This document shows, piece by piece, positions 1 to 13,543 of a DNA stretch of 56,979 nucleotides. This DNA is from Acidobacteriota bacterium. Lineage in GTDB: Bacteria; Actinomycetota; Acidimicrobiia; ATN3. The translations under genes and the position numbers were made by a program. Where the stretch lies: positions 1 through 56,979 of the forward strand of contig QEUQ01000010.1 in NCBI GenBank assembly GCA_003577105.1. The letters are read 5' to 3'. Within the stretch, counting starts at the first letter, position 1. The number at the start of each line of letters is the position of its first letter. The notes under the pieces were generated by a model. It worked only from the letters and a program-made list of their open reading frames with translations, did not search any database and was not told the DNA's origin.

Positions 1-384
1 GGTTCGCATACCAAGACGCACCGTGAGCTACCGGGACTTGACTCCGAAGCCCTCCACGACGAAATCGCCGGATCACGAGAAGAACTCCAAGAAAAGCTCG
101 GCGTGAAAGTTGAGAGCTTCGCCTACCCCAGGGGGCTTTACGATCACCGGGCCAAAGCTGCCGTACGCCAAGCCGGTTACTCAAGGGCGGTGGTGACTCC
201 GCGCGGCTCGGGGCATCAGGCCGATCGCTTCACGATCGAGAGGGTCGGAGTCTACGGACACACGGGGCCAACTGAATTCACACTCAAGGTTTTGGGCATT
301 TACAGCCAAATCAAGCGAACGAGCGTTGGCGCCCGGGTTTCAGCTGCGCGAGACGCACGACGCACGAATGCTGAACGGCGATGA
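1..384 (+). CDS. Polysaccharide deacetylase (NodB fold), C-terminal part
   Basis: The frame is open from the left edge, so only the last 127 residues are present. The visible start has a Ser-His-Thr-x-x-His motif (His3 and His7), the metal-binding pair of NodB/carbohydrate esterase 4 enzymes, and Phe40-Ala-Tyr-Pro-x-Gly45 is the usual later motif of that family. Such enzymes remove N- or O-acetyl groups from envelope polysaccharides. The catalytic Asp of the first motif would lie outside the window. The stop overlaps the next ATG (ATGA), so the gene belongs to the downstream glycan operon. The tail after about residue 100 is basic and poorly conserved in appearance. The family call is fairly safe; the substrate is unknown. 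Confidence 0.8.
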   Translation, partial: GSHTKTHRELPGLDSEALHDEIAGSREELQEKLGVKVESFAYPRGLYDHRAKAAVRQAGYSRAVVTPRGSGHQADRFTIERVGVYGHTGPTEFTLKVLGIYSQIKRTSVGARVSAARDARRTNAERR

Positions 385-1502
385 CGCACCCGCTGAAGAT
401 CCTCCACATACCCACCGATACCGCACTCGGTGGAACCGAACGCCGATTCGCCGACTTCATAGCTGCATCGAATCCCGAGCACTTCCGCCACGCTGTTCTG
501 ACCCTGAAACCTGTTGGCGTCGTCGGTGAGGGCCTCGCCAGAGCTGGCTTTGAGGTCGAATCGCTCAACCTGAGCAGAGCCCGCGCGGCGGTGGGAGCTC
601 CGGCACTTCTCAAGGCGATCAGGCAGTACAAGCCGGACATTGTCCAGACCTACCTGTTCGGAGGAAATACGGCGGGGCGCCCGGCGGCAAGACTCGCCGG
701 GGTTCCGGTTGTGGTATCGGGCTATGCGAGTACCGATCCGTGGATGCGCCCTCACCACATTGCCGCGGACATGACCAGCGCCAAGTTCGCAACCGCGCAC
801 CTAGCCAATGCTGAGGCAGTTGCCGATTCGGTGGTGCGCAGATGCAAGGTGCCGCGGGCGTCAATTGAGGTGGTCCACACGGGACGGCCGATACCCGACA
901 CTCCGGCAAGGCATGCCGCCCGCCCTGACGGGACGGTGGTGGGAATCGCCGCCGGTCGGGTCCACAGAGCCAAGGGGTACGACGTCCTTATTGAGGCATT
1001 AGCTCAGGCCGATTCGCGAATAAGAATCAAGGTCGCCGGCTCCGGCCCCATAGTTCACGGTGGACTTTCTGCCATCCAAGAACTTGAAGATGCAGCTGAA
1101 CGAGCGGGGGTGGCAGACCGGATTGAATTCCTGGGCGTGCGAGACGACATCAACGCTCTCATGGCCGAAGGGGACTTCCACGTGTTGCCATCACGATGGG
1201 AGGGTCTGCCCGGCGTCTTGATCGAAGCAATGGCAATGGGGTTGCCATCGGTAGCAAGCGCGGTTGGAGGAGTATCAGAAGCCCTCGTTGACAGCAAGAC
1301 CGGCTTCTTGACTGAGCCCGGCGATCCGACAAGCCTTGCAGACGGCCTGAACCGGATTGCCACAGCGGATCGCGCGACCCTTGGGGAGGCGGCTCGGTTG
1401 AGGGCTATAGAGAGCTTCTCGGTCGACGCGATGACGCATCGCTGGGAGAACTTCTATCGCCGTCTCGCACGACTCGCTCACCTCGAGGGACCAGGCCTTT
1501 GA
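381..1502 (+). CDS. Glycosyltransferase family 4 (GT-B fold)
   Basis: This 373-residue protein is of typical GT4 length. It has an N-terminal glycine-rich loop (Leu-Gly-Gly-Thr-Glu near residue 13) and the C-terminal donor-binding signature around residues 265-300: Ser-Arg-Trp-Glu-Gly-Leu, then Glu-Ala-Met-Ala-x-Gly-Leu-Pro-x-Val, then a Gly-Gly-Val-x-Glu. Enzymes of this family transfer sugars from nucleotide-sugar donors at the cytoplasmic membrane face. It starts with ATG inside the stop of the deacetylase gene and ends in a TTGA overlap with the next glycosyltransferase, so translation is probably coupled. It is likely one assembly step of the surface glycan made by this operon. Donor and acceptor cannot be read from sequence. 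Confidence 0.85.
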   Translation: MTHPLKILHIPTDTALGGTERRFADFIAASNPEHFRHAVLTLKPVGVVGEGLARAGFEVESLNLSRARAAVGAPALLKAIRQYKPDIVQTYLFGGNTAGRPAARLAGVPVVVSGYASTDPWMRPHHIAADMTSAKFATAHLANAEAVADSVVRRCKVPRASIEVVHTGRPIPDTPARHAARPDGTVVGIAAGRVHRAKGYDVLIEALAQADSRIRIKVAGSGPIVHGGLSAIQELEDAAERAGVADRIEFLGVRDDINALMAEGDFHVLPSRWEGLPGVLIEAMAMGLPSVASAVGGVSEALVDSKTGFLTEPGDPTSLADGLNRIATADRATLGEAARLRAIESFSVDAMTHRWENFYRRLARLAHLEGPGL

Positions 1503-2440
1503 GCATCACGGTCGTCATACCCACCTACAACCGAGCGGAACTATGCCTAGAAGCCGTCAACACCGCGCTGGATCAAACATGCCCCCCTTCAGAGGTCATC
1601 GTGGTCGACGACGGTTCAACCGACTCGACCCCAGACCTGTTCAAAGACGCTAAGCCCCCCGTCAGATATCTCAGACAGGAGAACGCCGAACGAGCGGCAG
1701 CCCGCAACAGAGGAATCAGAGAGGCTGGAGGAGACCTGATTGCATTCCTCGATTCAGATGACCGATGGGATCCGCACCATCTCGAACTCTCGCAGGCCGC
1801 GCTTGCCGCTCATCCAAATGCGGCACTTGCCTTTGGCAGGGCCGCCTACACCGCTCCAGACGGGCGAGTCCTTTGGGAGGCGCCATCGCCCCCGATAGAG
1901 GCCGGCCAGTGTGACGACGCGGTCCCGTCGCTGACCGCCAAGGGCATCGGCTTCCCGCTCTCCACCGTTGTCGCGAGGCGCGAGGTTCTCACCGAGAATC
2001 CGTTCAACGAAGACAGGCTCCTCTCTCGCTCTGAGGATTGGGAACTCTGGATACGGATATCAGCCCGCCACCCGGTTGTGGCAACCGGTGAAGTCACGGC
2101 GTTTCTACGCATGCATGAGGGAAACACGAGTCAGGACGCCGCCGCCGTGGGGGAGGCGATGAAACGGGCGCTCAGCTATGTACTCGACGACCCCGTAGCC
2201 GGTCCGAAAGTAGCCGAGCACAAGGACTCAATCGGAGACGCCATGGAGGTCGAAATCGCCCGACTTGAGTTGAAGGCGGGCGACAGGGCGGCCGCAAGGC
2301 GGCGACTGAAGACCTTGGCACGACCCACTCCGGAGTCGCGGCGACTCGAGTTCACCCTCTGGGTTCCGGTCCCGATCGCCGGACTCGCCAGGCGCCTCCG
2401 ACGTATCCTTGCAGCACGCAAGAGCATGGAGCCCAAGTGA
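1499..2440 (+). CDS. Glycosyltransferase family 2 (GT-A fold)
   Basis: The 313-residue protein begins with Val-Val-Ile-Pro-Thr-Tyr-Asn and has Asp-Asp-Gly-Ser-Thr-Asp near residue 37 and Phe-Leu-Asp-Ser-Asp-Asp-Arg-Trp near residue 84. These are the nucleotide- and metal-binding motifs of inverting GT2 enzymes. Arg-Ser-Glu-Asp-Trp-Glu-Leu-Trp further on supplies the usual catalytic acidic residues. The C-terminal third is charged and alanine-rich and is not recognised. Start is TTG at 1499, in a TTGA overlap with the previous stop; the end overlaps the pseB GTG start. The context suggests it adds a sugar to the glycan that also carries the nonulosonic acid. Confidence 0.85.
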   Translation: MSITVVIPTYNRAELCLEAVNTALDQTCPPSEVIVVDDGSTDSTPDLFKDAKPPVRYLRQENAERAAARNRGIREAGGDLIAFLDSDDRWDPHHLELSQAALAAHPNAALAFGRAAYTAPDGRVLWEAPSPPIEAGQCDDAVPSLTAKGIGFPLSTVVARREVLTENPFNEDRLLSRSEDWELWIRISARHPVVATGEVTAFLRMHEGNTSQDAAAVGEAMKRALSYVLDDPVAGPKVAEHKDSIGDAMEVEIARLELKAGDRAAARRRLKTLARPTPESRRLEFTLWVPVPIAGLARRLRRILAARKSMEPK

Positions 2441-3429
2441 GTCTCGACGGCAAGACAATCCTGATCACCGGTGGAACGGGGTCATTTGGACGCGCATTCA
2501 TCAGCGCTGTCCTCACCCGGCACCAGCCGCATGCGATCCGAGTTCTGTCCAGAGATGAACTGAAGCAGAGCGAACTTGCCCGCCAATATCACGGGGATGA
2601 CCGCCTCAGGTACCTTCTCGGTGACATCAGAGATCTCCCCCGTCTGCGTCAGGCATTCAACGGCGTTGATCTGGTGGTGCACGCGGCCGCCATGAAGCAA
2701 GTGCCCGCCTGTGAATACAACCCGTTCGAGGCGGTGAAGACCAACATCTTGGGCACCGAAAACGTGATTGCCGCCGCGATCGAGTGCGACGTCGAGACGG
2801 TCGTTGCGATCTCTTCGGACAAGGCCGTGAGCCCGGTGAACCTTTACGGAGCGACCAAACTCTGCGCCGAGAAGCTCTTCTCCCGCTCAAATGCATATGT
2901 CGGTGCCGGCAGAACCCGCTTCGCTTCGGTCCGTTACGGCAATGTGGTTGGCAGTCGCGGCAGCGTTGTTCCCCTCTTTCAAGAACAGGCAGCCGAAGGG
3001 CGGCTGACAATCACCGACCCGGAGATGACCCGCTTCTGGATCACACTGACGCAGGCGGTCGATTTGGTTATCGAATGCGCGACACGGGTTTCAGGCGGGG
3101 AGGTGGTCATCCCCAAGATCCCATCGACAAAGATCACGGACCTCGCGGAGGCTATTGCGCCTGGGGTGCCCTATGAAGTCACAGGTATCCGCCCGGGTGA
3201 GAAGCTGCACGAAGACCTGATTACTCCTGACGAATCGAGAAATGCCATTGAACTCGACGGTCAGTACGTGATCCTCCCTGACGATCCGTCATGGCAGCCG
3301 GCGTCGCCTTGGCCAGAGGGCAAGGCCGTCGCGCCGGGATTCCGATACACGAGCAATACAAACGACTGGTGGCTCACGGGTGACGAACTCAAACGAGTCA
3401 TCGCAGAGTCTGGAGCCGGTGAGTACTGA
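2437..3429 (+). CDS. pseB: UDP-N-acetylglucosamine 4,6-dehydratase (inverting)
   Basis: PseB carries out the first step of pseudaminic acid synthesis: UDP-GlcNAc becomes UDP-2-acetamido-2,6-dideoxy-L-arabino-hexos-4-ulose. The 330-residue sequence is of family length. It has the NADP-binding Thr-Gly-Gly-Thr-Gly-Ser-Phe-Gly at 11-18, His-Ala-Ala-Ala-Met-Lys-Gln-Val-Pro at 82-90, the catalytic Ser-Ser-Asp128-Lys129 and Tyr137-x3-Lys141. The Met-Lys-Gln-Val-Pro stretch is typical of inverting dehydratases and argues against a LegB or RmlB assignment. Start GTG overlaps the preceding stop by four bases. The aminotransferase that uses its product follows at once, with a CTGA overlap. Confidence 0.92.
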   Translation: MSLDGKTILITGGTGSFGRAFISAVLTRHQPHAIRVLSRDELKQSELARQYHGDDRLRYLLGDIRDLPRLRQAFNGVDLVVHAAAMKQVPACEYNPFEAVKTNILGTENVIAAAIECDVETVVAISSDKAVSPVNLYGATKLCAEKLFSRSNAYVGAGRTRFASVRYGNVVGSRGSVVPLFQEQAAEGRLTITDPEMTRFWITLTQAVDLVIECATRVSGGEVVIPKIPSTKITDLAEAIAPGVPYEVTGIRPGEKLHEDLITPDESRNAIELDGQYVILPDDPSWQPASPWPEGKAVAPGFRYTSNTNDWWLTGDELKRVIAESGAGEY

Positions 3430-4577
3430 AGAGGATTCCCTATGGGCACCAGCGAATCGATCAGCGTGATATCGACGCGGTCTCGGCAGTTCTGGGGAGT
3501 GACTGGCTGACAACCGGCCCGCAGGTCGAGGCCTTTGAGGAGGAACTGGCTGCCTACTGTGGGGCGCGCCACGCAGTCGTAACCAGCAGTGGGACCACCG
3601 CCCTCTACGGAGCCTGCAATGCACTTGGCCTCGCACCTGGAACTGAAGGAGTCGTTCCCGCTCTCACCTTCGCGGCGTCCGCTACCTGTCTCTTGAGCGT
3701 CGGCGCGAAACCGGCCTTTGTCGATATCGACCCGGAGACCGGCAACATCGATCCGGCTGCGGCCGAAGCTGCAATCACCCCCGGGACCCGGGTGGTCATT
3801 CCCGTTCATTTCGCCGGCCTGCCCGCCAACCTTGATGCACTTGCCGAGATTGCCAAACGACGGCAGGTAGCAGTCCTCGAGGACGCCGCCCACGCACTGG
3901 GCGCCTCGGTAGGCGACGAGAAGGTGGGGGGATGCGCGAAATCGCAAATGGCGATCTTCTCGTTTCATCCGGTCAAGGCGATCACCACTGGCGAGGGAGG
4001 GGCGGTGCTGACCAATGACGACCACCTCGCCGAGAGAGTCCGCACATGGCGCAACCACGGGATCAAGCGCTACCCGGCCCAAGGTAGCTGGTACTACGAG
4101 ATCGAATCGCTGGGGAGCAACGCCAGGCTGACAGATTTCGCGTGTGCTCTCGGGCGCGCGCAGCTCAAGACACTAGATGTGCGAATCTCCGAGCGACAGG
4201 GAATTGCCGCCGCCTACGACAGGCTCCTCGACCCATTTGCCGATCATGTAATCAAGCCACCCAAGCCGCCCGATGGCACCCGCCACGCGTGGCACCTATA
4301 TGTGATCCGATTCAAGGATCCCAGCGTGCGAGAGGTCGTGTACAGAGAGATGCAGGCGGCGGGGATCGGTGTACAGGTTCACTACGTTCCCGCCCATTGG
4401 CACCCGGTCTTCAAGCCCTTCGGGGCACCACCGCGAGGCTCGCTCTCCAACACCGAAGCTTGGTATGAGGCCTCGCTCTCGCTCCCGATCTATCCGGGGC
4501 TCACCTATGACGACCAGGTTCGGGTGATCTCGGTCTTGAAGCGTTCACTCGAGATTGCTTCTCAGGAAACGCTATGA
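3426..4577 (+). CDS. pseC: UDP-4-amino-4,6-dideoxy-AltNAc aminotransferase, CTG start
   Basis: This DegT/DnrJ/EryC1-type PLP enzyme aminates the PseB product. The first in-frame ATG/GTG/TTG is at 3693, which would remove about 90 residues. Those residues are clearly coded upstream: Ile-Pro-Tyr-Gly-His-Gln, Asp-Trp-Leu-Thr-Thr-Gly-Pro and Ser-Ser-Gly-Thr-Thr-Ala are standard N-terminal family motifs. The frame is blocked by TGA at 3420-3422, so the start must lie between 3423 and about 3441. CTG at 3426 fits: it forms a CTGA overlap with the pseB stop, has GGAG about ten bases upstream, and gives 383 residues starting Met-Lys-Arg-Ile-Pro. The PLP lysine in His-Pro-Val-Lys is then Lys184. Function is confident; the start codon is inferred. 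Confidence 0.88.
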   Translation: MKRIPYGHQRIDQRDIDAVSAVLGSDWLTTGPQVEAFEEELAAYCGARHAVVTSSGTTALYGACNALGLAPGTEGVVPALTFAASATCLLSVGAKPAFVDIDPETGNIDPAAAEAAITPGTRVVIPVHFAGLPANLDALAEIAKRRQVAVLEDAAHALGASVGDEKVGGCAKSQMAIFSFHPVKAITTGEGGAVLTNDDHLAERVRTWRNHGIKRYPAQGSWYYEIESLGSNARLTDFACALGRAQLKTLDVRISERQGIAAAYDRLLDPFADHVIKPPKPPDGTRHAWHLYVIRFKDPSVREVVYREMQAAGIGVQVHYVPAHWHPVFKPFGAPPRGSLSNTEAWYEASLSLPIYPGLTYDDQVRVISVLKRSLEIASQETL

Positions 4578-5830
4578 ACGATCAGACGAGAGAGCTTCTC
4601 CGGCGTGCACTTACGGTCATACCCGAAGCAACCCAGACTCTGAGCAAAGGGCCGAGCCAATTTGTCCAGGGCCCGTCACCGGTATTCATAGAACGCGGCC
4701 GCGGCTCGAGGGTCTACGACTCTGAGGGTACGGAGTACATCGACTGGCCGATGGCACTTGGTCCGGTTCTGCTCGGACATTGCGACCCCCGAGTCAATCA
4801 AGCGATACGAGATCAGCTTGAGTTGGGGATCACATTCACCCTCCCGAGCCCGCTCGAGACCTCCGTTGCGGAACAGCTTGTGGCGACTGTCCCAAGCGCT
4901 GAGATGGTCAGGTTCGCGAAGTCGGGATCTGAGGCCGTTGCAGGAGCGATCCGCCTCGCTCGCGCTGTCACCGGGCGCGACCTGATACTCACATCCGGAT
5001 ATCACGGATGGCACGACGCCTTTGCATCGCATACCGGACGCAGTGCCGGAGTCCCCTCGGTCACAGCAGCACTCTCGATCGAATTCACCGAGACGGAGGT
5101 GCTCAAGACACTCCTCGATGATCGCGGTGCCGCCGCCGTGATAATCGAGCCGGCCACGGGGCGAGCACCTGCGCCCGGATATCTCGAAGAAGTTGCTCGC
5201 CTGACACGTGAAGCGGGGGCGCTCCTGATCTTCGACGAGATTATCACGGGCTTCAGGTGGGCGCCCGGCGGAGCGCAGGAGTACTACGGAGTCGCGCCGG
5301 ACATCACTGTCGTCGGAAAGGCCCTCGGCAATGGCATGCCGATATCGGCCATCTGCGGATCAGCCACGATCATGGAGCACTTCTCGGAAATCTTCGTCTC
5401 GGGGACCCATGGTGGAGAGTGCCTGTCTCTGGCCGCGGCAGGAGCTGTGCTCAGGGCAGTCAACGAGACGGATGTTATCGAGAAGATCTGGGCAACTGGA
5501 CGCCGGGTGGGCGATGGCATCGGCAAGCTAATTGCAGGTCATGATTTGGATTCTCATTTCGAATGCGCCGGCGAACCACCGCGGGTAGTTGTAACGGTAA
5601 TCGGAGGGGACCTCGCCGTCAGAAGCCTTCTGCAGCAGGAGTTAGCCAAGGCGCGCATCCTCTTCAATGGCTCACTGTTTCCGACTCCTGCACACTCGAA
5701 GACCGACGTGGATCAGACCCTGGACGCTTTCGACAAGGCCTTCCGAGCAGTAGCACGCGGAATCGCTTCGGGAGACCCGGCGTCGCTAGTCGAGGGGGAG
5801 CTAATCGCTCCCGCCTTCCGCCAAGCCTGA
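4574..5830 (+). CDS. Class III aminotransferase, glutamate-1-semialdehyde type
   Basis: The 418-residue protein resembles glutamate-1-semialdehyde 2,1-aminomutases. It has Lys-Ser-Gly-Ser-Glu-Ala at 116-121, Gly-Tyr-His-Gly-Trp-His-Asp near 142-148, Phe-Asp-Glu-Ile-Ile-Thr-Gly-Phe-Arg near 220-228, and the PLP lysine in Val-Gly-Lys249-Ala-Leu-Gly-Asn-Gly. It lies between pseC and pseI in an ATGA-overlapped operon with no haem genes, so a job in haem synthesis is unlikely. It may instead aminate or isomerise a sugar intermediate or side group, giving a modified nonulosonic acid. Such genes do occur in nonulosonic acid loci of other bacteria, but the reaction here is not established. The family call is strong; the role is inference. 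Confidence 0.8.
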   Translation: MNDQTRELLRRALTVIPEATQTLSKGPSQFVQGPSPVFIERGRGSRVYDSEGTEYIDWPMALGPVLLGHCDPRVNQAIRDQLELGITFTLPSPLETSVAEQLVATVPSAEMVRFAKSGSEAVAGAIRLARAVTGRDLILTSGYHGWHDAFASHTGRSAGVPSVTAALSIEFTETEVLKTLLDDRGAAAVIIEPATGRAPAPGYLEEVARLTREAGALLIFDEIITGFRWAPGGAQEYYGVAPDITVVGKALGNGMPISAICGSATIMEHFSEIFVSGTHGGECLSLAAAGAVLRAVNETDVIEKIWATGRRVGDGIGKLIAGHDLDSHFECAGEPPRVVVTVIGGDLAVRSLLQQELAKARILFNGSLFPTPAHSKTDVDQTLDAFDKAFRAVARGIASGDPASLVEGELIAPAFRQA

Positions 5831-5867
5831 AACGGTAGAAAATGGTTGCGGCCAGAGTGAGGAAGCC

Positions 5868-6917
5868 GTGAACGAAAACTTCGAAATCGGTGGTAAGCCT
5901 GTCGGTGCGGGCGCTCCATGCTTTGTGATTGCTGAAGCAGGTGCCAACCACGACCGCGACTTCGAGCAGGCCAAGCGGTTAATCGATGTCGCAGCAGAGA
6001 CCGGAGCCGATGCCGTCAAGTTCCAGACTTATACGGGCGCCCGCCTCTACTCGCGCAAGACGCCCAAGTTTCAGTACCTCAAGGGCGTGAGTGAGCTGCC
6101 TCCGGCCGAACTTCTCGACTCGATTGCACTGCCCCGCGAATGGCAAGGCGAACTCGCGAGCTATGCGGCGGACAAGGGGATCTTGTGGTTCTCATCTCCC
6201 TTCGACCTTGACGCAGTGGCATCGCTTGAGAGCATTGGTGTGCCGGCATTCAAGATTGCGTCGTTCGAGATCGTGGATTTGGAGCTGATCCGGAGGTGCG
6301 CATCGACTGGAAAGCCAGTCGTGATCTCGACAGGCATGGCGACTCTGGGGGAGATCGAAGATGCCATCGAGGCCTGCCGAAGTGAGGGGAACGAATCAGT
6401 CGCCCTCCTGCAATGTGTCTCGCTCTACCCTGCGCCCGCCGAAAGCATGAACTTGAGGGCGATGGAGACTCTCCGATCAGCTTTCGGTGTTCCAGTCGGT
6501 CTCTCGGACCACACGATCGGCACGCCGGTGGCAATTGCGGCAGCGGCAATCGGGGCCAACTTGGTGGAGAAGCATTTCACCCTCGACCGGACTCTCAAGG
6601 GGCCGGATCACCCGTTTGCGGCTGAGCCACAGGAGCTCGCTGAACTCATAGCGGGAATCAGGGCAGCAGAACGGGCCATGGGGGATGGGCGCAAAATCGG
6701 TCCAATCCCGGAGGAGAGCGAGGAGATGTTCGACCTTGCTCGCAGGTCGGTGGTGGCTGCCATGCCGATACCGAAGGGCACCATCATCACGAGGGAAATG
6801 CTTACCGTGAAGCGCCCGGGCTGGGGAATCCGGCCGAAGCACATCGAACTGGTCGTCGGCCGCGAAGCCAAGGCCGACATTGAAGATGACGAGGTCCTCA
6901 CGTGGGAGATGGTCTGA
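5868..6917 (+). CDS. pseI: Pseudaminic acid synthase (NeuB family with SAF domain)
   Basis: The enzyme condenses a 2,4-diacetamido-trideoxyhexose with phosphoenolpyruvate to the nine-carbon nonulosonic acid. The 349-residue protein has a NeuB barrel: Glu-Ala-Gly-Ala-Asn-His-Asp near 24-30, Lys-Phe-Gln-Thr-Tyr near 51-55, Ile-Ala-Ser-Phe-Glu-Ile-Val-Asp, and Glu-Lys-His-Phe-Thr-Leu-Asp around residue 228. A C-terminal antifreeze-like SAF domain follows from about 285. The Ser-Phe-Glu-Ile stretch favours pseudaminic over sialic acid synthases. Start GTG at 5868 has GAGGAAG just upstream. A 37-base gap from the previous gene is one of the few breaks in the operon. NeuB and LegI are alternatives, disfavoured by pseB and pseC. 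Confidence 0.9.
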   Translation: MNENFEIGGKPVGAGAPCFVIAEAGANHDRDFEQAKRLIDVAAETGADAVKFQTYTGARLYSRKTPKFQYLKGVSELPPAELLDSIALPREWQGELASYAADKGILWFSSPFDLDAVASLESIGVPAFKIASFEIVDLELIRRCASTGKPVVISTGMATLGEIEDAIEACRSEGNESVALLQCVSLYPAPAESMNLRAMETLRSAFGVPVGLSDHTIGTPVAIAAAAIGANLVEKHFTLDRTLKGPDHPFAAEPQELAELIAGIRAAERAMGDGRKIGPIPEESEEMFDLARRSVVAAMPIPKGTIITREMLTVKRPGWGIRPKHIELVVGREAKADIEDDEVLTWEMV

Positions 6918-7375
6918 GCGGCTCATTAACGCTCCGGCCGGCCACCGAAGACGATGCCCGGTTCTTCTTCGAACTGCGCAATGAAGTCGGGGTTCGAGAG
7001 GCATCCTTCAGTTCCGAGCCGTTTTCCTGGGAGCATCACCTTGACTGGTTCGAGCGCCGACTCGCTTCGGGCGACCCAATCTTCGTAGCCCAGTCAGGAG
7101 GCGAGAACGTCGGCTATGTCCGCCTCGATTCGCTGGGCGACGACGAGTACGAAGTATCAGTGGCTGTCATTCCCGAGGTGAGAGGGCATGGAATCGGGAC
7201 TTCGCTCATCAAGCAGGCCTCCGAAGCTGCCGAAGCTGAGGGCGCGATTCGCCTGATCGCACGGATAAGACCAGGAAACGACGCATCAATGAAGGCCTTC
7301 GAGGCTGCCGGATATTCGGGAGGGCTTCATCACAACGGCGAGGAGATGTTTCTCGCCCGGTCGGCTGTGAAATGA
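6902..7375 (+). CDS. pseH: GNAT N-acetyltransferase, PseH-like
   Basis: This 157-residue GNAT protein has the motif A region Val-Arg-Gly-His-Gly-Ile-Gly-Thr-Ser-Leu at about 96-105, which binds acetyl-CoA, and the usual N-terminal Leu-Arg-Pro-Ala-Thr-Glu-Asp-Asp. In the Pse pathway PseH acetylates the C4 amine made by PseC. Its place between pseI and pseG supports that role, though GNAT sequences alone do not define the substrate. The GTG at 6902 overlaps pseI by 16 bases. A CTG at 6914 would give a 4-base CTGA overlap and the more natural N-terminus Met-Ser-Gly-Ser-Leu-Thr-Leu-Arg, so the true start is uncertain. It ends in ATGA with pseG. Confidence 0.78.
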   Translation: MGDGLSGSLTLRPATEDDARFFFELRNEVGVREASFSSEPFSWEHHLDWFERRLASGDPIFVAQSGGENVGYVRLDSLGDDEYEVSVAVIPEVRGHGIGTSLIKQASEAAEAEGAIRLIARIRPGNDASMKAFEAAGYSGGLHHNGEEMFLARSAVK

Positions 7376-8373
7376 ACGCGCTAATCGCCGTGGATTTCAC
7401 CCCGGATAGTGGCCTGGGTCACGTGAGGCGGGGACTAGCGATTGGCGCCGCTCTCTCCGGGCTTGGCTGGAATGTCACGTTGGCTAACACAGCATCTGCC
7501 GAGATCGCCCTTGGCGATGGAGCCGGTGACATCGGCACCCTCTCAGGGCTCGGGTCTGGTGAGCGCGGGACCGGCGGGCGCGGGTCCGACGGGCTCGACC
7601 CCGCTTCGCTTCGCCCGAACTTCGATGCATGCGTCATCGATTCATACAAGGCGACTCCCGAGCTTCGCAGGGCCCTAGCTCCGTATCTCGCGATCGACGA
7701 CTATTACCTCCCGCTTCCCGGTGCGATTGCGGTGCTGAACCCAGCACCCGGCGCGGACGCGGCCCAATACCAGATTGATGAAAAGCTGTTGGGACCCAGA
7801 TACGCGCTCCTCGGCGGGGACGTTCTCCTCGCCCGCGAATCGTGTGAGGAACCAGAGTTCCCACCTCGACGGGTGTATGTGTGGCTCGGAGCCGCTGGTA
7901 CTACCGAACTAGCTGGAATCGTGAAGAGCACCCTCGCCGGGTTGCTCCCCGCGGCGGAAGTGATATTTCCGCCCGCTCACGCCAACCCGATACAGCCTCA
8001 GGCCGGGCCCGCGGAAACTCAAGTCAGCTTCAATGGCGGCGCCCGCTACATTGCGATGGCCGACATGGTCGTGTGCGCAGGAGGTGTCACCGCACTCGAA
8101 GCTGCATGCATTGGCAGACCTACCGTGGCACTCGCTCTCGCGGAGAATCAGCTGGCCAACGTCGCCGGCCTTGCCGGCGAGGGCACCCTCGTCGCGGCGA
8201 CGGATTCGACACTTGGGCAAGTGGTAAGCGAGCTCTTATCCGACCGGGAGAAATTCCTGGGACTTGGGAGCCGAGGGCGCAAACTTGTAGACGGACTTGG
8301 TGCCGAACGGGCAGCAGAGGCAATAGGTCGGATCTTCTCTGAGCCGGCAGGAGGGAGCCCCCACCTTGACTGA
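7372..8373 (+). CDS. pseG: UDP-2,4-diacetamido-2,4,6-trideoxy-altropyranose hydrolase
   Basis: PseG releases UDP from the diacetamido sugar before condensation by PseI. The 333-residue GT-B-like protein opens with Asp-Ser-Gly-Leu-Gly-His-Val-Arg-Arg at 12-20; the Gly-x-Gly-His loop carries the catalytic His in this family. Near residue 225 it has a Met-Val-Val-Cys-Ala-Gly-Gly-Val-Thr-Ala-Leu-Glu-Ala donor-site motif. Residues 49-76 are an unusually glycine-rich stretch between the first strands that looks like a flexible insertion. The ATG overlaps the pseH stop. The order H-G is as expected for a Pse operon. Confidence 0.85.
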   Translation: MNALIAVDFTPDSGLGHVRRGLAIGAALSGLGWNVTLANTASAEIALGDGAGDIGTLSGLGSGERGTGGRGSDGLDPASLRPNFDACVIDSYKATPELRRALAPYLAIDDYYLPLPGAIAVLNPAPGADAAQYQIDEKLLGPRYALLGGDVLLARESCEEPEFPPRRVYVWLGAAGTTELAGIVKSTLAGLLPAAEVIFPPAHANPIQPQAGPAETQVSFNGGARYIAMADMVVCAGGVTALEAACIGRPTVALALAENQLANVAGLAGEGTLVAATDSTLGQVVSELLSDREKFLGLGSRGRKLVDGLGAERAAEAIGRIFSEPAGGSPHLD

Positions 8374-9370
8374 AGACGGCTTACCTTCAATTGCGGTGAT
8401 CGGGCTGGGCTCGATTGGAGTGCGGCATGCCGGCAATTTCCAGTCTCTCGGCTGCCAAGTGATCGGCGCGGACTCCGATCCAGGGCGACTTCAGATGCTC
8501 GACCGATTCCCCGAGGCGGCCGCCGCGGCGAACATCGACGATGCCATCGAGCGGTCAGACGCCGTAGTCATCGCGACCCCGGCTTCGTCGCACATTCCAA
8601 TCGCCGCGCAAGCACTCTCAGCAGGGCGCCACCTCCTCATCGAGAAGCCTCTCTCGACTGATCTAAGCGGCTCCGACCAGCTCGAAGACCCCGCTGACTC
8701 GATCGTGATGACAGGCTTCAACCTTAGATTCCTGCCAGCTGTTGGAAAGGCAAAGACCCTCATTGACGACGGCGCGATTGGGCGGATCCTCAACGGCTCC
8801 TTTGAATTCGGCTATGACCTCCGCAAGTGGAATCCACACCGCGACTATCGCAAGACCTACTCGGCCAGAGTTGAAGACGGCGGCGGGGTTCTCCTCGATG
8901 CGATCCACGAGCTTGATCTGCTGCTGCACCTCTGCGGAGCAGCAGACTCCGTGATCGCGACGCTCGGAAGCTCCGGCCTACTCGAGATCGACGGTGAGGA
9001 CAGGGTTGTCGCCGCCGTCACCATCGAAGGGGGCGGAATTCTTCAAGTCGCCCTCGACTACCTCTCGCCCACCTACTACAGGGGATTTCGCATCGTTGGC
9101 GACGAGGGCCTGATTGAGTGGGACTGGAACACCGGCACCATGAATTTCATCAGGGGGGATGCGCGGGCCCAATTCCACTGGAACACAGACGCGGACGCGA
9201 CCTACGTCGAGGAGGCCCGCCACTTCCTAGCCTGCATCGCTGAAGGGCAGGTGAAGCCACCGGCCGCCGACATTGCTGCAGGGATCTCATCGCTTGAATT
9301 GGCCATGGCAATACGTGAATCAGACTCCGAGAGCGCGCGTGTCTTCCTCGGAGAGACTCCCGATGAATAG
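8366..9370 (+). CDS. Gfo/Idh/MocA family oxidoreductase
   Basis: The 334-residue protein has a Rossmann start, Ile-Gly-Leu-Gly-Ser-Ile-Gly-Val-Arg-His at 12-21. Glu-Lys-Pro-Leu-Ser is near residue 94, where the Glu-Lys-Pro motif binds cofactor and substrate in this family. Asp-Gly-Gly-Gly-Val-Leu-Leu-Asp-Ala-Ile-His-Glu near 172-183 includes the usual second-domain His. Members oxidise or reduce ring hydroxyls of sugars with NAD(P). It is not part of the canonical CMP-pseudaminic acid route, so its place between pseG and pseF suggests a tailoring step on the nonulosonic acid or a precursor. TTG start overlaps pseG by eight bases. The exact reaction is unknown. Confidence 0.8.
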   Translation: MTEDGLPSIAVIGLGSIGVRHAGNFQSLGCQVIGADSDPGRLQMLDRFPEAAAAANIDDAIERSDAVVIATPASSHIPIAAQALSAGRHLLIEKPLSTDLSGSDQLEDPADSIVMTGFNLRFLPAVGKAKTLIDDGAIGRILNGSFEFGYDLRKWNPHRDYRKTYSARVEDGGGVLLDAIHELDLLLHLCGAADSVIATLGSSGLLEIDGEDRVVAAVTIEGGGILQVALDYLSPTYYRGFRIVGDEGLIEWDWNTGTMNFIRGDARAQFHWNTDADATYVEEARHFLACIAEGQVKPPAADIAAGISSLELAMAIRESDSESARVFLGETPDE

Positions 9371-9504
9371 GCGAGGCTCCCTACGGAGGCTCCCAAGAAG
9401 CACATCGTCGGCCATGCCAGAACTGCGGCCTCTCGGGGGTTCAAGTGGCAGTTAGCAGGATCTCTTACGAAATTGCCCGCCAGCTGCCACTGCCGCCCGA
9501 GGAG

Positions 9505-10191
9505 ATGCGGCCGACTGCAATCATCCAGGCCCGCATGGGCTCTGAGCGCCTTCCGGGCAAGGTACTCATGCAACTCGGGGAGAAGCAGGTACTTGAGCAC
9601 CTTGTTGATCGGGTCTCTCGCGCTGAAGGGGTTGGCCGGATTCTGATTGCGACAACTGACCTTGAACCGGACAACGCCATTGCCGCATTTGCGACTGCCC
9701 GGGGCGTTGGGCTCTTCAGAGGTGACTCTTCGGACGTCCTCCTGAGATATGTCGAGGCGGCATCAGCTGACTCGTCACCCGCGGTGCTGCGTATAACCGG
9801 GGACTGCCCCCTGATAGATCCCGCTGTCATAAGCGCAGTCGTCGGCGCGTGGTGGAACAATGGCGATCCCTACGACTATGGCGGAAACACACTAGAACGC
9901 ACATTCCCTGACGGCATGGATGCAGAGGTGATGACCCTTGAGACACTGGGGCGCCTCGACAAGCAATCAGTCGGGATTGATCGCGAACACGTCACAAGCA
10001 GCCTCATCCGCGACCCGGAACCGTTCCGGTGCATCAACATCGAATATTCCCGATACCTCGCTGACATCCGTATGACGATCGACACCGACGACGACCTGGC
10101 GAAACTGCGCTGGGTTGTGCGCGAAGCGGCGGCTCGCAACCCGGGCTTCACCCTAAATGACCTGCTTGTAGTCGAAGGGTATGGGGGGTGA
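9505..10191 (+). CDS. pseF: Pseudaminic acid cytidylyltransferase (CMP-NulO synthetase family)
   Basis: The protein activates the nonulosonic acid with CTP. From ATG at 9505 it has 228 residues and begins Arg-Pro-Thr-Ala-Ile-Ile-Gln-Ala-Arg-Met-Gly-Ser, then Arg-Leu-Pro-Gly-Lys-Val-Leu. That is the nucleotide-binding N-terminus of the SpsF/CMP-sugar cytidylyltransferase group, with no preceding residues expected. Thr-Gly-Asp-Cys-Pro-Leu-Ile-Asp and Asp-Gly-Met-Asp-Ala-Glu-Val further on fit the family. The frame can start earlier at GTG 9445, adding 20 atypical residues; GAGGAG directly abuts ATG 9505, so the start is not settled. The end overlaps the flippase start by GTGA. SpsF-type enzymes vary in substrate; neighbours support Pse. 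Confidence 0.8.
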   Translation: MRPTAIIQARMGSERLPGKVLMQLGEKQVLEHLVDRVSRAEGVGRILIATTDLEPDNAIAAFATARGVGLFRGDSSDVLLRYVEAASADSSPAVLRITGDCPLIDPAVISAVVGAWWNNGDPYDYGGNTLERTFPDGMDAEVMTLETLGRLDKQSVGIDREHVTSSLIRDPEPFRCINIEYSRYLADIRMTIDTDDDLAKLRWVVREAAARNPGFTLNDLLVVEGYGG

Positions 10192-11801
10192 GCGAGGACA
10201 CTCCCGCCCCCGCAAGCAGGCGATTGCTGCTGGTGCGCAACACAGCCTGGAACCAGGCAGCCCAGCTCGTCCGGATGCTCTCTCAGTTCATACTCCTGCC
10301 CTTCATCGTCAACCGGATCGGCGCAACCGAAGCCGGGATCTATTTCCTGGCCCTCTCGTTCACTGCATATTTTGGGATCCTCGATTCGTCCTTCTCCCAG
10401 CCGCTCATCAAGTTCATCGCGGAGTACCGCGCAACGGGTGAAGATGACAAGCTAAGAGCGTCGGTCCGGGCTGTCTTCAGAGTCTTCACCGGGGTCGGGG
10501 TGGTCGCAGCCATGCTGCTCGGCGCTGCCGGCATCTGGGCACTTGGAATTCTTGAAGTCCCTCAAGATCAAACCTCACTCGCACGAGCCACCTTCGCCGT
10601 GGCAGCCATCGCTTCGCTTGCTACTTGGCCGATGACGACCTACGACAACATTCTCCGCGGGATCCAGAGATTCGACCTGGTAAGCAAGGTATCGATCGTC
10701 GTAACTGCCGTGGCCTTCACCGGGCAGCTGATTGCCATCGCCTCGGGCCTTGGTCCGCCAGTACTGATCGGCATCACCCTTGCATCAGTTGCCGCTGGAA
10801 TGAGCGTAAGCCGGTACCTCGCGCGACGTGAGCTGCCGCAGATCCGAAGCGGTCCCGGAACGCCGAGATCCATCTCAAAGCGGCTTGCCGGATTCGCAGG
10901 CACGCTCTTCTTGATTGGCCTGACCGATCTCGTGATCTATCAAGTGGATCGAACAGTGGTCTCGGTGACCGCCGGGGTGGCCGCAGTCACGATCTATGAA
11001 TTCGCAGCGCGGTTCCACAAAGTCCCCCGCGATCTTCATGCAATCGCCGTTTCCGCGGGCATGCCTGCCGCCTCTGAGCTCGACGCTGCGGGCGACCGGG
11101 AGCGGCTTGCGAAGCTCATGTCCGATGGCACTCGGTTCACCGTTGCGCTAGTGCTACCGGTCACCATTGCAATCCTCGCGCTCGGACGTGCGCTGACCTC
11201 GTCATATGCGCCGCCCGAGGCCTGGGCTCCCCTGGTCATCTTCACCTCATACTGGGTGCTCAACGCGAATACGGGGATTCCGTCGGTGATCCTCGCCGGC
11301 ATGGGGCGCCTCAAGGTACTGCTCGTCTATGCCTACGCAGTTGCCGCGCTAAACCTCATACTCTCGATCCTTCTCGCACGGCGCTACGGAGTGTCTGGAG
11401 TGGTTGCCGGGACTACGATCTCCTATGCCTTGGCGTTCCCAGTCTTTCTTGCCATCTCAATGCGAGTGATCGGTGTGCGCTTCTTCGAATTCGCGAAGCG
11501 GGCTTGGTGGCCCGCATATCCAATGGCGGCAGTTCTCGGCGGAGTCTTGCTCCTTGCGGCGGGCCCGCTCGCTCGCTCGGGCAATTTCGTACTCACTGCC
11601 GGAAGCGGAGCTATGGCGGTGGGAATCTACCTCGCGGTCTTCTGGGCCTTTGCCGTCACCAAAGATGAGCGCAAGGACTTCACAGATGCGCTGACCGGAA
11701 AGCGGCAGGCACTCCCGTCGGAATCCCTTACTGAAGAAGAGATTGCGGTCGTACCCGATTCGAGAGTCACACCACACACCAAAGAAATGGAATCCGAGTG
11801 A
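10188..11801 (+). CDS. Polysaccharide flippase, Wzx/MOP superfamily
   Basis: This 537-residue, very hydrophobic protein has roughly 12-14 membrane segments spread along its length and no soluble domain. The N-terminus reads Asn-Thr-Ala-Trp-Asn-Gln and Gln-Phe-Ile-Leu-Leu-Pro, similar to oligosaccharide flippases of the MATE/MOP superfamily. The role of such proteins is to move lipid-linked repeat units across the cytoplasmic membrane. The C-terminal 40 residues are acidic and charged. The start GTG overlaps pseF and the end overlaps the next gene, placing export of the finished unit in the same operon as synthesis of the CMP-sugar. A second flippase lies near 32418. Confidence 0.8.
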   Translation: MSEDTPAPASRRLLLVRNTAWNQAAQLVRMLSQFILLPFIVNRIGATEAGIYFLALSFTAYFGILDSSFSQPLIKFIAEYRATGEDDKLRASVRAVFRVFTGVGVVAAMLLGAAGIWALGILEVPQDQTSLARATFAVAAIASLATWPMTTYDNILRGIQRFDLVSKVSIVVTAVAFTGQLIAIASGLGPPVLIGITLASVAAGMSVSRYLARRELPQIRSGPGTPRSISKRLAGFAGTLFLIGLTDLVIYQVDRTVVSVTAGVAAVTIYEFAARFHKVPRDLHAIAVSAGMPAASELDAAGDRERLAKLMSDGTRFTVALVLPVTIAILALGRALTSSYAPPEAWAPLVIFTSYWVLNANTGIPSVILAGMGRLKVLLVYAYAVAALNLILSILLARRYGVSGVVAGTTISYALAFPVFLAISMRVIGVRFFEFAKRAWWPAYPMAAVLGGVLLLAAGPLARSGNFVLTAGSGAMAVGIYLAVFWAFAVTKDERKDFTDALTGKRQALPSESLTEEEIAVVPDSRVTPHTKEMESE

Positions 11802-13543
11802 GTTCGGCCTTCATCGCGACTTCAGTGGACTCCCTGGGCTCAGTGGAGAAGGGCGACGTTGTCTATACGGATTATTGGGATGTGATTCAGGCCGCGAGAT
11901 CCGCTGGGATCGAGTGCCGTGATCTCCGGGAAGTCTTTGCTGACGAACCCGAACGCGTCGACGCCGCTGTCATGGAATGGGCCGATTGGGTTACGTCTCT
12001 GGCCGAACCGACATGGCGCGGAGCCCCTCTAACTCCGGCGATTCGCGTCGATCTGACTTGGAGAGTCTTCTTTCCACTGGCCCGCCACGCGATAGCTGCA
12101 TGCACGCTGGCAGAGTCAGGGTCGCCGATCACGATCGATCTACCCAGTGGAACTCTGATCGGTGATGCGGTACTAGCCGGGGCACGCGATGCCGGCGGCA
12201 AGGTCAGTCAGCTCGCGAGCGGCAAGTCGCTTCCGCTTCCGGCCTCGCACGCTCCAGTCACCCCCGAGATTGGAGCAAGCCTCCAGCGCTACCGCGCGCT
12301 CAGGCTCATTTCACCGCTTATCTCGCTTCGTTCTCGAATCGCCGGAAGAGGGCTAGATGGCCGGCCTCGAATTGCGATCTCTTACTACACAAGCCTGGTA
12401 CCGATCCTCCACCGGCTCGCAGAGCGAGCATGGTTCGCACTTTGGCCGTGGGCGCTCCCGCCACCGGCTCAGGCGGGCATGATGCTCTCGGACGGTGGAA
12501 GTTGCCTTGACCCTTCAACGCCAGCCGACGCCGTAGATCTCGAGGAAGCGCGATCCACGTTCGTCGAGATCCTCGGCGGCGCGGATTTCGACGCCTCGGG
12601 AATCGAGGTGAGCGAGATTTTTCGGCGGCACACATCCGCCGTCGCCGGTGAACTGCTCCGCTACTCGCTCTATCGAACCGCTGCGGCCCACTCATCTCTC
12701 GGTTCGACGCGACCCGATGCAGTCCTTGTCCCATTCGATGTAGGGCTCAGCGCTGCGCCATTGGTAGCGGCCGCCAACGAACTTGGAATACCGACAATCC
12801 TCGTACAACACGGGGCCGAAGGCTCGCTCATCCCCGGAGACAAGCGCCTTGCGAGCGACGTTCTGGTCTGGTCTGGACAAATCGCCGACCACTATCGGTC
12901 AATGCCCGAATACGGCGATCCCTCCAAGTTCCGGGCAACGGGGGCCGCGATGCTTGAGCCGCTAACCGGCTTGCGGCCCACTGCCGGCCGAGAAGGTGAG
13001 CGCGATGGGGTGCTATTCCTTTCGCATCCGACTCTTCACAACACCGCCTGCGACTCATGGATGGCCTCGGAGAACTACCTTGCCGCCATTGCTGAAGTAG
13101 TGAGGAATCTGCCTGAGGGGATGCGCGTTTCGGGCCTCAAAATTCACCCGAGCGAATCGCACGAGCACTATCGACAAGTGGCTGAGGCGGTCGGTCTGCA
13201 TGTGCCGCTGATTACCGACGGACGAATTCCCGACGTGCTCGACGGAGTGCAACTGGTCGCGGGCCCGGAATCGACCGGGCTGCTCGAGGCGTGGCAGGCG
13301 GGGCGAGCGCCTGTATGCGCCAACCTCGGTGGAATTCCAATGGCGCCACCGTTCGATGGATCTACTGAAATCCCCGTCGTGCCATCTGTGACAGTCCTGA
13401 CTGATCTCCTCAGGCGCTGGCACGAAGGCAAGTGGAGCTTTGCCGACCCCGCGCCAAATCTCGAATGCGAAATTGGCAACGTTGCCGGGTCGATCGACGA
13501 GACCGTGGAAGCGATCCTCGAGATCGCCGGGAGAGGGCGATAG
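11798..13543 (+). CDS. Unassigned 581-residue protein, candidate surface-sugar transferase
   Basis: I do not recognise a named family. The N-terminal third is variable. The second half looks like a GT-B fold: Gly-Ile-Pro-Thr-Ile-Leu-Val-Gln-His-Gly-Ala-Glu-Gly at about 329-341, Leu-Lys-Ile-His-Pro-Ser-Glu near 447-453, and a donor-site-like Ala-Gly-Pro-Glu-Ser-Thr-Gly-Leu-Leu-Glu-Ala near 486-496. Gln-His-Gly and Lys-x-His-Pro motifs recur in capsule, Kdo and sialic-acid-type transferases. It is the last gene of the overlapped nonulosonic acid operon, directly after the flippase, and no other obvious CMP-sugar transferase is nearby. A nonulosonic acid transferase is therefore the best guess, but it remains inference. 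Start GTG overlaps the flippase stop. Confidence 0.55.
   Translation: MSSAFIATSVDSLGSVEKGDVVYTDYWDVIQAARSAGIECRDLREVFADEPERVDAAVMEWADWVTSLAEPTWRGAPLTPAIRVDLTWRVFFPLARHAIAACTLAESGSPITIDLPSGTLIGDAVLAGARDAGGKVSQLASGKSLPLPASHAPVTPEIGASLQRYRALRLISPLISLRSRIAGRGLDGRPRIAISYYTSLVPILHRLAERAWFALWPWALPPPAQAGMMLSDGGSCLDPSTPADAVDLEEARSTFVEILGGADFDASGIEVSEIFRRHTSAVAGELLRYSLYRTAAAHSSLGSTRPDAVLVPFDVGLSAAPLVAAANELGIPTILVQHGAEGSLIPGDKRLASDVLVWSGQIADHYRSMPEYGDPSKFRATGAAMLEPLTGLRPTAGREGERDGVLFLSHPTLHNTACDSWMASENYLAAIAEVVRNLPEGMRVSGLKIHPSESHEHYRQVAEAVGLHVPLITDGRIPDVLDGVQLVAGPESTGLLEAWQAGRAPVCANLGGIPMAPPFDGSTEIPVVPSVTVLTDLLRRWHEGKWSFADPAPNLECEIGNVAGSIDETVEAILEIAGRGR

Follow-up and report, generated by a model that had tools for sequence, protein, structure and literature searches.

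Which sugar is made by an operon that combines genes for pseudaminic acid (Pse) with two enzymes additional to the known pathway? The question is raised by a contig of an Acidimicrobiia bacterium (GenBank assembly GCA_003577105.1, contig QEUQ01000010.1), taken over 56,979 nucleotides and referred to here as the window; it is contig C74 of a genome of 2.87 Mb in 104 contigs, which is 95% complete. Positions 2437–13543 form one tightly overlapped operon of ten intact genes, all on the plus strand, including a flippase and a transferase-like gene, as the first-pass annotation of the sequence had described it. We propose, with about even confidence for and against, that this operon makes and exports a Pse-type sugar with one extra amino group, for which C8 would be the most likely site. 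The two additional enzymes, a class III aminotransferase (AT3) and a Gfo/Idh/MocA dehydrogenase (GFO), constitute a pair that is real, widespread and uncharacterised.

The backbone sugar

Genes were named using the curated cut-offs of family models (TIGR and others) together with Pfam matches. The CMP-pseudaminic acid pathway comprises PseB, PseC, PseH, PseG, PseI and PseF, all six of which had been read in the operon at first. Its five sugar-building steps appear to be shared, with support of differing strength: PseB exceeds its curated cut-off, PseC misses its own by 1.5 bits over a near full-length match, and the PseH- and PseG-like proteins are of the right kind and in the right place, with scores well under their cut-offs. 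In two relatives of the locus (L006 and L028), PseH is fused to PseG. The assignment of PseF does not stand, since the PseF model has no match in the operon and the cytidylyltransferase is of the SpsF type (Pfam CTP_transf_3). Thus, the operon differs from the known pathway in this enzyme and in the two additional ones.

For the nonulosonate synthase, the models alone are undecided, as the protein scores slightly under both the NeuB and the PseI cut-off (TIGR03586, 327 vs. 340; TIGR03569, 365 vs. 400). Pse synthases carry Phe instead of the Gly of neuraminic (Neu) and legionaminic acid (Leg) synthases, and Ser instead of their Asn or Tyr (Halsor et al., 2020, PMC7371886). In the window, the motifs KIASFE and LQCVSLYP place Phe133 and Ser185 at these sites, and the same residues occur in the synthases of L006, L008 and L028. 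The site of C2 specificity holds Phe and not the Gly expected for a CMP-legionaminic acid pathway. A comparison of active sites, suggested with the first-pass annotation, therefore gives Pse-type rather than Neu- or Leg-type residues, and the LegB model gives PseB only 49.9 bits vs. a cut-off of 475. Because of the synthase residues and both scores of PseB, the backbone is taken to be of the Pse type. An SpsF-type enzyme is compatible with this, since a Vibrio cluster encoding a domain of this type was found by mass spectrometry to produce PseAc2 (PMC7371886).

Two additional enzymes and their distribution

Both additional enzymes are intact and keep their active-site motifs, as had been claimed. 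GFO has the catalytic residues Lys94 and His181, and its EKP motif and His181 are invariant in six relatives; AT3 has its pyridoxal phosphate (PLP) lysine, K249. Among named sequence families, GFO comes nearest to UDP-GlcNAc 3-dehydrogenase, at 90 bits and far under the cut-off; YjhC and one similar Gfo/Idh entry are among its weak sequence matches. A structure model of GFO (pLDDT confidence score 78) has levoglucosan dehydrogenase, GnnA, WlbA and GenD2 among its fold neighbours, but it matches many sugar dehydrogenases about equally, so that no substrate is singled out.

AT3, which was placed by its sequence and modelled with a pLDDT of 78, resembles the aminomutase HemL, whose family model gives it 256 bits vs. 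a cut-off of 527. The canonical HemL of the same genome is encoded on another contig (C65) and reaches 584 bits. We aligned AT3 with 100 relatives, including true HemLs and the genome's own. The PLP lysine is kept in all sequences. True HemLs, that of this genome included, keep the motifs SPVR and SxFE, the Arg and Glu of which are substrate-binding residues of the aminomutase. In the AT3 of the window, Lys25 replaces this Arg, and Asn stands in place of the Glu. All nonulosonate-linked AT3s in the alignment share the change to Lys, within a motif Q/M-x-L/F-S/A-K, and lack the Glu motif. Consequently, AT3 is not HemL, and a Q-x-L-S-K motif instead of SPVR allows annotators to stop giving such genes that name. 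In phages and plasmids no close relatives of AT3 were found, only distant ones of at most 43% identity.

Within the class, a relative of the synthase is present in 39 of 247 genomes, and a close relative of AT3 in only four. Sixteen synthase loci were fetched, and the comparison covered 17 loci from the class or the wider phylum. At least thirteen class loci combine PseB, PseC, PseI and PseG, mostly with an SpsF-type enzyme, and show no trace of AT3 or GFO. On this count the core pathway is ordinary. A Pse gene set in an actinobacterium, considered notable in the first-pass annotation, is therefore nothing unusual in this class. Where AT3 lies beside a NeuB-type synthase (the window, L006, L008 and L146, the last from the wider phylum), GFO is present in all four cases. 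Since the four AT3 loci have GFO and the 13 core-only loci have neither gene, AT3 and GFO are, on this distribution, gained and lost together and behave as one add-on to a constant Pse core. The search of related genomes for the same set recovered all eight enzymes in two other class genomes. As a separate observation, one class genome carries an AT3 of the same type (L007, 4481–5668), and the 16 kb retrieved around it contain no nonulosonate gene. An indirect check on the phylum, Actinomycetota, showed that a genome assigned to it shares DNA of about 90% identity with Streptomyces plasmids.

Beyond the phylum, the AT3 alignment was scanned against a genome collection; the following figures hold among the matches listed and are not a census. 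AT3 adjoins nonulosonate genes in Methanoregula, Endomicrobiales, Giovannonibacteria, Leptospirales, Pedobacter, Moorena and Neptuniibacter. All eight enzymes are found in the Methanoregula archaeon and most of the set in the Endomicrobiales and Giovannonibacteria loci; because of this recurrence and that in the two class genomes, the composition of the operon is not due to chance. In at least four loci, SpsF and AT3 form a single polypeptide: L019 (9191), L038 (9242–11290), L063 (9065–11290) and L086 (1098). These fusions argue for an action of AT3 on the nonulosonate, close to its activation with CMP, rather than on a UDP-sugar. Taken with the joint gain and loss, they bear out the assignment of the two enzymes to the nonulosonate pathway. 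In at least eight loci an aldo-keto reductase is found instead of GFO, and in others a short-chain dehydrogenase/reductase (SDR) lies beside AT3. By gene neighbourhood, the oxidoreductase partner of AT3 is thus replaceable.

Proposed product and competing explanations

Known pairs such as GnnA/GnnB, WlbA/WlbE and GenD2/GenS2 consist of a dehydrogenase and a PLP aminotransferase, which convert a sugar hydroxyl to an amine. GFO and AT3, both intact and co-occurring, resemble tailoring pairs of the GenD2/GenS2 or GnnA/GnnB kind. Since an NAD(P)-dependent sugar dehydrogenase followed by a PLP aminotransferase is the usual route from hydroxyl to amine, they can be understood as an aminating pair. 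We infer what the pair does, at which carbon and in which order; the added amine may be free or acylated. In this mechanism, PseB, PseC, the PseH-like acetyltransferase, PseG and PseI would assemble a 5,7-diamino nonulosonic acid of Pse configuration. GFO would then convert one of the hydroxyls still free into a ketone, AT3 would transaminate this ketone, and the SpsF-type enzyme would activate the product with CMP. The two glycosyltransferases encoded upstream (GT4 and GT2) and the protein X581 are candidate transferases, and the Wzx-type flippase would export the glycan unit. In Pse, free hydroxyls are left only at C4 and C8, since nitrogen sits at C5 and C7, the ring is closed through C6, and C9 is a methyl group. 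C8 appears preferable, as its oxidation would give a methyl ketone, a typical substrate of class III transaminases, and as an 8-amino nonulosonate is known chemically: the O-polysaccharide of Flexibacter (Tenacibaculum) maritimus contains an 8-amino-3,5,7,8,9-pentadeoxy-manno-nonulosonic acid, tentatively L, which bears amino groups at C5, C7 and C8 and thus matches the predicted product type (PMC3210612). This sugar is known as chemistry only and, to our knowledge, no other organism with an 8-amino nonulosonate has been described. A species-specific 16S primer sequence for T. maritimum, run against 399 genomes of one order, matched at seven places with one mismatch each, all of them outside rRNA, and a keyword search of the genome paper of this species yielded nothing on its O-antigen locus. 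That the end product is modified, as the first-pass annotation had supposed, is the best reading of the add-on behaviour, though drawn from sequence.

Several points weigh against this proposal. The counts of AT3 and GFO within the class and phylum come from related genomes and represent a pattern, not an independent statistic. Among the matches listed, no recognised oxidoreductase was seen in L036, L049, L053 and L077, with L036 and L053 on short contigs, and L053 shows no PseC in view. The resemblance of GFO to UDP-GlcNAc 3-dehydrogenase could point to a UDP-sugar substrate. The preference for C8 over C4 follows from chemical elimination and precedent, and the Gfo/Idh enzyme NanOx/YjhC acts at C4 of sialic acid.

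The latter two points lead to explanations of their own. The nonulosonate could be plain Pse5Ac7Ac, while GFO and AT3 would make a separate amino sugar of the glycan by 3-oxidation and 3-amination at the UDP-sugar level, like GnnA/GnnB or WlbA/WlbE. Besides the nearest sequence family, GnnA and WlbA as fold neighbours speak for this, and the two further glycosyltransferases in the operon imply that the glycan has other sugars. We consider it unlikely, given the fusion of AT3 to the CMP-transferring SpsF and the occurrence of AT3 in Pse loci across phyla; in addition, GnnB and WlbE belong to the DegT family and not to class III. Nor could the amination simply precede the synthase, because an amino group at C3 of the hexose would take the place of the oxygen needed for closing the nonulosonate ring. 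Action of the pair at C4 would use the other free hydroxyl, and both NanOx/YjhC as precedent and the weak matches of GFO agree with it. Yet it is the 8-amino compound that has been described, and we know of no natural 4-amino nonulosonate. A variant in which the pair alters stereochemistry without leaving an amine does not explain AT3, as an epimerase has no need of a PLP transaminase. Taken together, a 4-amino or epimerised product seems unlikely too.

A legionaminic-type product is suggested by Bacillus subtilis, where SpsC–SpsG use an SpsF-type enzyme and UDP-linked precursors for Leg (PMC7439481), and the best PDB match of our synthase is B. subtilis SpsE. But SpsE has Tyr and Ala at the two diagnostic sites occupied here by Phe and Ser, and PseB is of the inverting type and rejected by the LegB model. 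The PseAc2 product of the Vibrio cluster (PMC7371886) weakens the argument from SpsF as well, and we rejected Leg as very improbable. Finally, AT3 might be a second glutamate-1-semialdehyde (GSA) aminomutase, brought into the operon by chance along with an unrelated dehydrogenase, and the closest solved structures to AT3 are indeed GSA aminomutases. A canonical HemL elsewhere in the genome, the replaced substrate residues in all nonulosonate-linked AT3s and the repeated occurrence of AT3 beside Pse genes across many phyla leave hardly any probability to such a coincidence. The reading we prefer is therefore still a Pse-type sugar with an additional amine, preferably at C8.

Relation to known systems and operon layout

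The combination had been put forward as new, which does not hold. Most Aeromonas group I flagellar islands contain, between pse genes, a reductase called "alpha/keto reductase" together with a class III aminotransferase, and subgroups IF and IG are without both (Forn-Cuni et al., 2021, PMC7874193). Like the operon, these islands thus add to their pse genes an oxidoreductase and an aminotransferase of class III, which are present or absent together. They differ in having another reductase family instead of Gfo/Idh and in forming a flagellar locus with a Maf transferase. Their reductase, matched by description only, is probably the aldo-keto reductase seen in at least eight AT3 loci. The O-antigen locus of Legionella pneumophila Sg6/Sg12 contains CapD, DegT, NeuB, PseG, a cytidylyltransferase, a GSA-aminomutase-like gene, an aldo/keto reductase and an oxidoreductase-domain protein (PMC3694923). 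It shares with the operon the nonulosonate genes, the aminomutase-like gene and oxidoreductases, but adds HisF/HisH-like and other lipopolysaccharide genes and exports by Wzm/Wzt; a modified nonulosonate is not part of its published interpretation (PMC3694923). In neither paper (PMC7874193, PMC3694923) did we find a function assigned to the pair of oxidoreductase and class III aminotransferase, and a literature search that was thin on subscription journals returned no characterised enzyme of this AT3/oxidoreductase kind. The sps genes of B. subtilis have the SpsF-type cytidylyltransferase, UDP-linked precursors and relatives of SpsE and SpsG in common with the operon, but they make Leg, not Pse, and include no class III aminotransferase or Gfo/Idh enzyme as described (PMC7439481). 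The flagellin glycan of Aeromonas hydrophila AH-1 has a mass of 403 Da, for which its authors gave a tentative formula without nitrogen (PMC4691044). We note this as a lead only, conditional on AH-1 having the gene pair: an odd mass implies an odd nitrogen count, with which a third amine and an acetamidino group would fit equally.

If our proposal for the operon is true, the presence of two genes shows from the sequence which bacteria bear a nonulosonic acid with three amino groups, and a candidate biosynthetic route is at hand to a sugar of which only the chemistry has been described. It would also account for the conserved pair found in the flagellar loci of Aeromonas and in the O-antigen loci of Legionella, where the serotype is determined by sugars on the cell surface. 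Extending it further, AT3 with a Gfo/Idh, aldo-keto reductase or SDR partner may represent an unrecognised 8-amino (5,7,8-triamino) nonulosonate pathway that occurs in archaea as well as in numerous bacterial phyla, with Legionella Sg6/12 and most Aeromonas islands of group I among its carriers. We regard this extension as possible but rather doubtful; if it were correct, a compound described from a single pathogen of fish would be a common sugar of cell surfaces.

The arrangement of the genes is given in the table. The genes for GT4 and GT2 sit directly upstream of 2437–13543 in the same operon. Overlaps of 4 to 16 bases occur at eight junctions (GT2/PseB, PseB/PseC, PseC/AT3, PseI/PseH, PseH/PseG, PseG/GFO, SpsF/Wzx and Wzx/X581), and the sole intergenic gaps measure 37 and 74 bases. 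No ATG, GTG or TTG fits the start of PseC. Its frame opens with a CTG at 3426, which overlaps the stop codon of PseB as CTGA and, being the sole plausible codon in register (3423–3440), is the probable start. X581 matched no Pfam family. Its C-terminus weakly resembles the BFO_1060 family of glycosyltransferases (E-value 0.0014; 17.8 vs. a cut-off of 200), which we take to be nonulosonate transferases in Tannerella.

Table. Genes of the operon and of its upstream part, with coordinates in the window and the basis of each name
Gene product	Position	Strand	Basis
GT4 glycosyltransferase	381..1502	+	Pfam Glyco_trans_1_4 9.6e-33; relative adjoins PseB in G006
GT2 glycosyltransferase	1499..2440	+	Pfam Glycos_transf_2 1.4e-31; 4-base overlap with PseB
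PseB, UDP-GlcNAc 4,6-dehydratase (5-inverting)	2437..3429	+	TIGR03589 456.3 bits vs. cut-off 407.75
PseC, 4-aminotransferase, DegT family	3426..4577	+	TIGR03588 422.0 vs. cut-off 423.5, profile 2–378 of 380
AT3, class III PLP aminotransferase (additional enzyme 1)	4574..5830	+	Aminotran_3 4e-50; PLP Lys249
PseI-type nonulosonate synthase, NeuB family (NeuB + SAF domains)	5868..6917	+	Pfam NeuB 6.9e-90; F133, S185
PseH-like GNAT N-acetyltransferase	6902..7375	+	Acetyltransf_3 1.9e-16; PseH model weak, 22.6 vs. 93.1
PseG-like UDP-sugar hydrolase	7372..8373	+	TIGR03590 59.7 bits, under cut-off 153.6
GFO, Gfo/Idh/MocA dehydrogenase (additional enzyme 2)	8366..9370	+	GFO_IDH_MocA domains; EKP, His181
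Cytidylyltransferase of the SpsF type, replacing PseF	9445..10191	+	CTP_transf_3 5.7e-23; best PDB sequence match 6oew 1.1e-33
Wzx-type flippase	10188..11801	+	Polysacc_synt 6.1e-16; relative in L008 48% identical
X581, candidate nonulosonate glycosyltransferase	11798..13543	+	weak C-terminal match to BFO_1060 family; L008 relative in same place

Some loci of the wider scan deserve mention on their own. L086, which carries an SpsF–AT3 fusion and an aldo-keto reductase, is titled as a metagenome-assembled genome of Bifidobacterium breve, a label that may be wrong. Within the nonulosonate locus L034, a HisF-like gene is present (7469–8233; compare HisF4/HisH2 of Legionella Sg6), which probably belongs to an amidine-making system. 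In Methylomagnum (L009, 6800–13671), an SpsF-type gene, two transketolase halves, AT3, an SDR, a NeuB-type synthase and a HAD-IIIA phosphatase lie together. To judge by its gene content, this cassette seems to encode another nonulosonate-like pathway, one that involves a two-carbon transfer. L013, L015, L016, L017 and L029 resemble it, with SpsF, AT3 and NeuB at like spacing, the gene names being annotated in L009 only.

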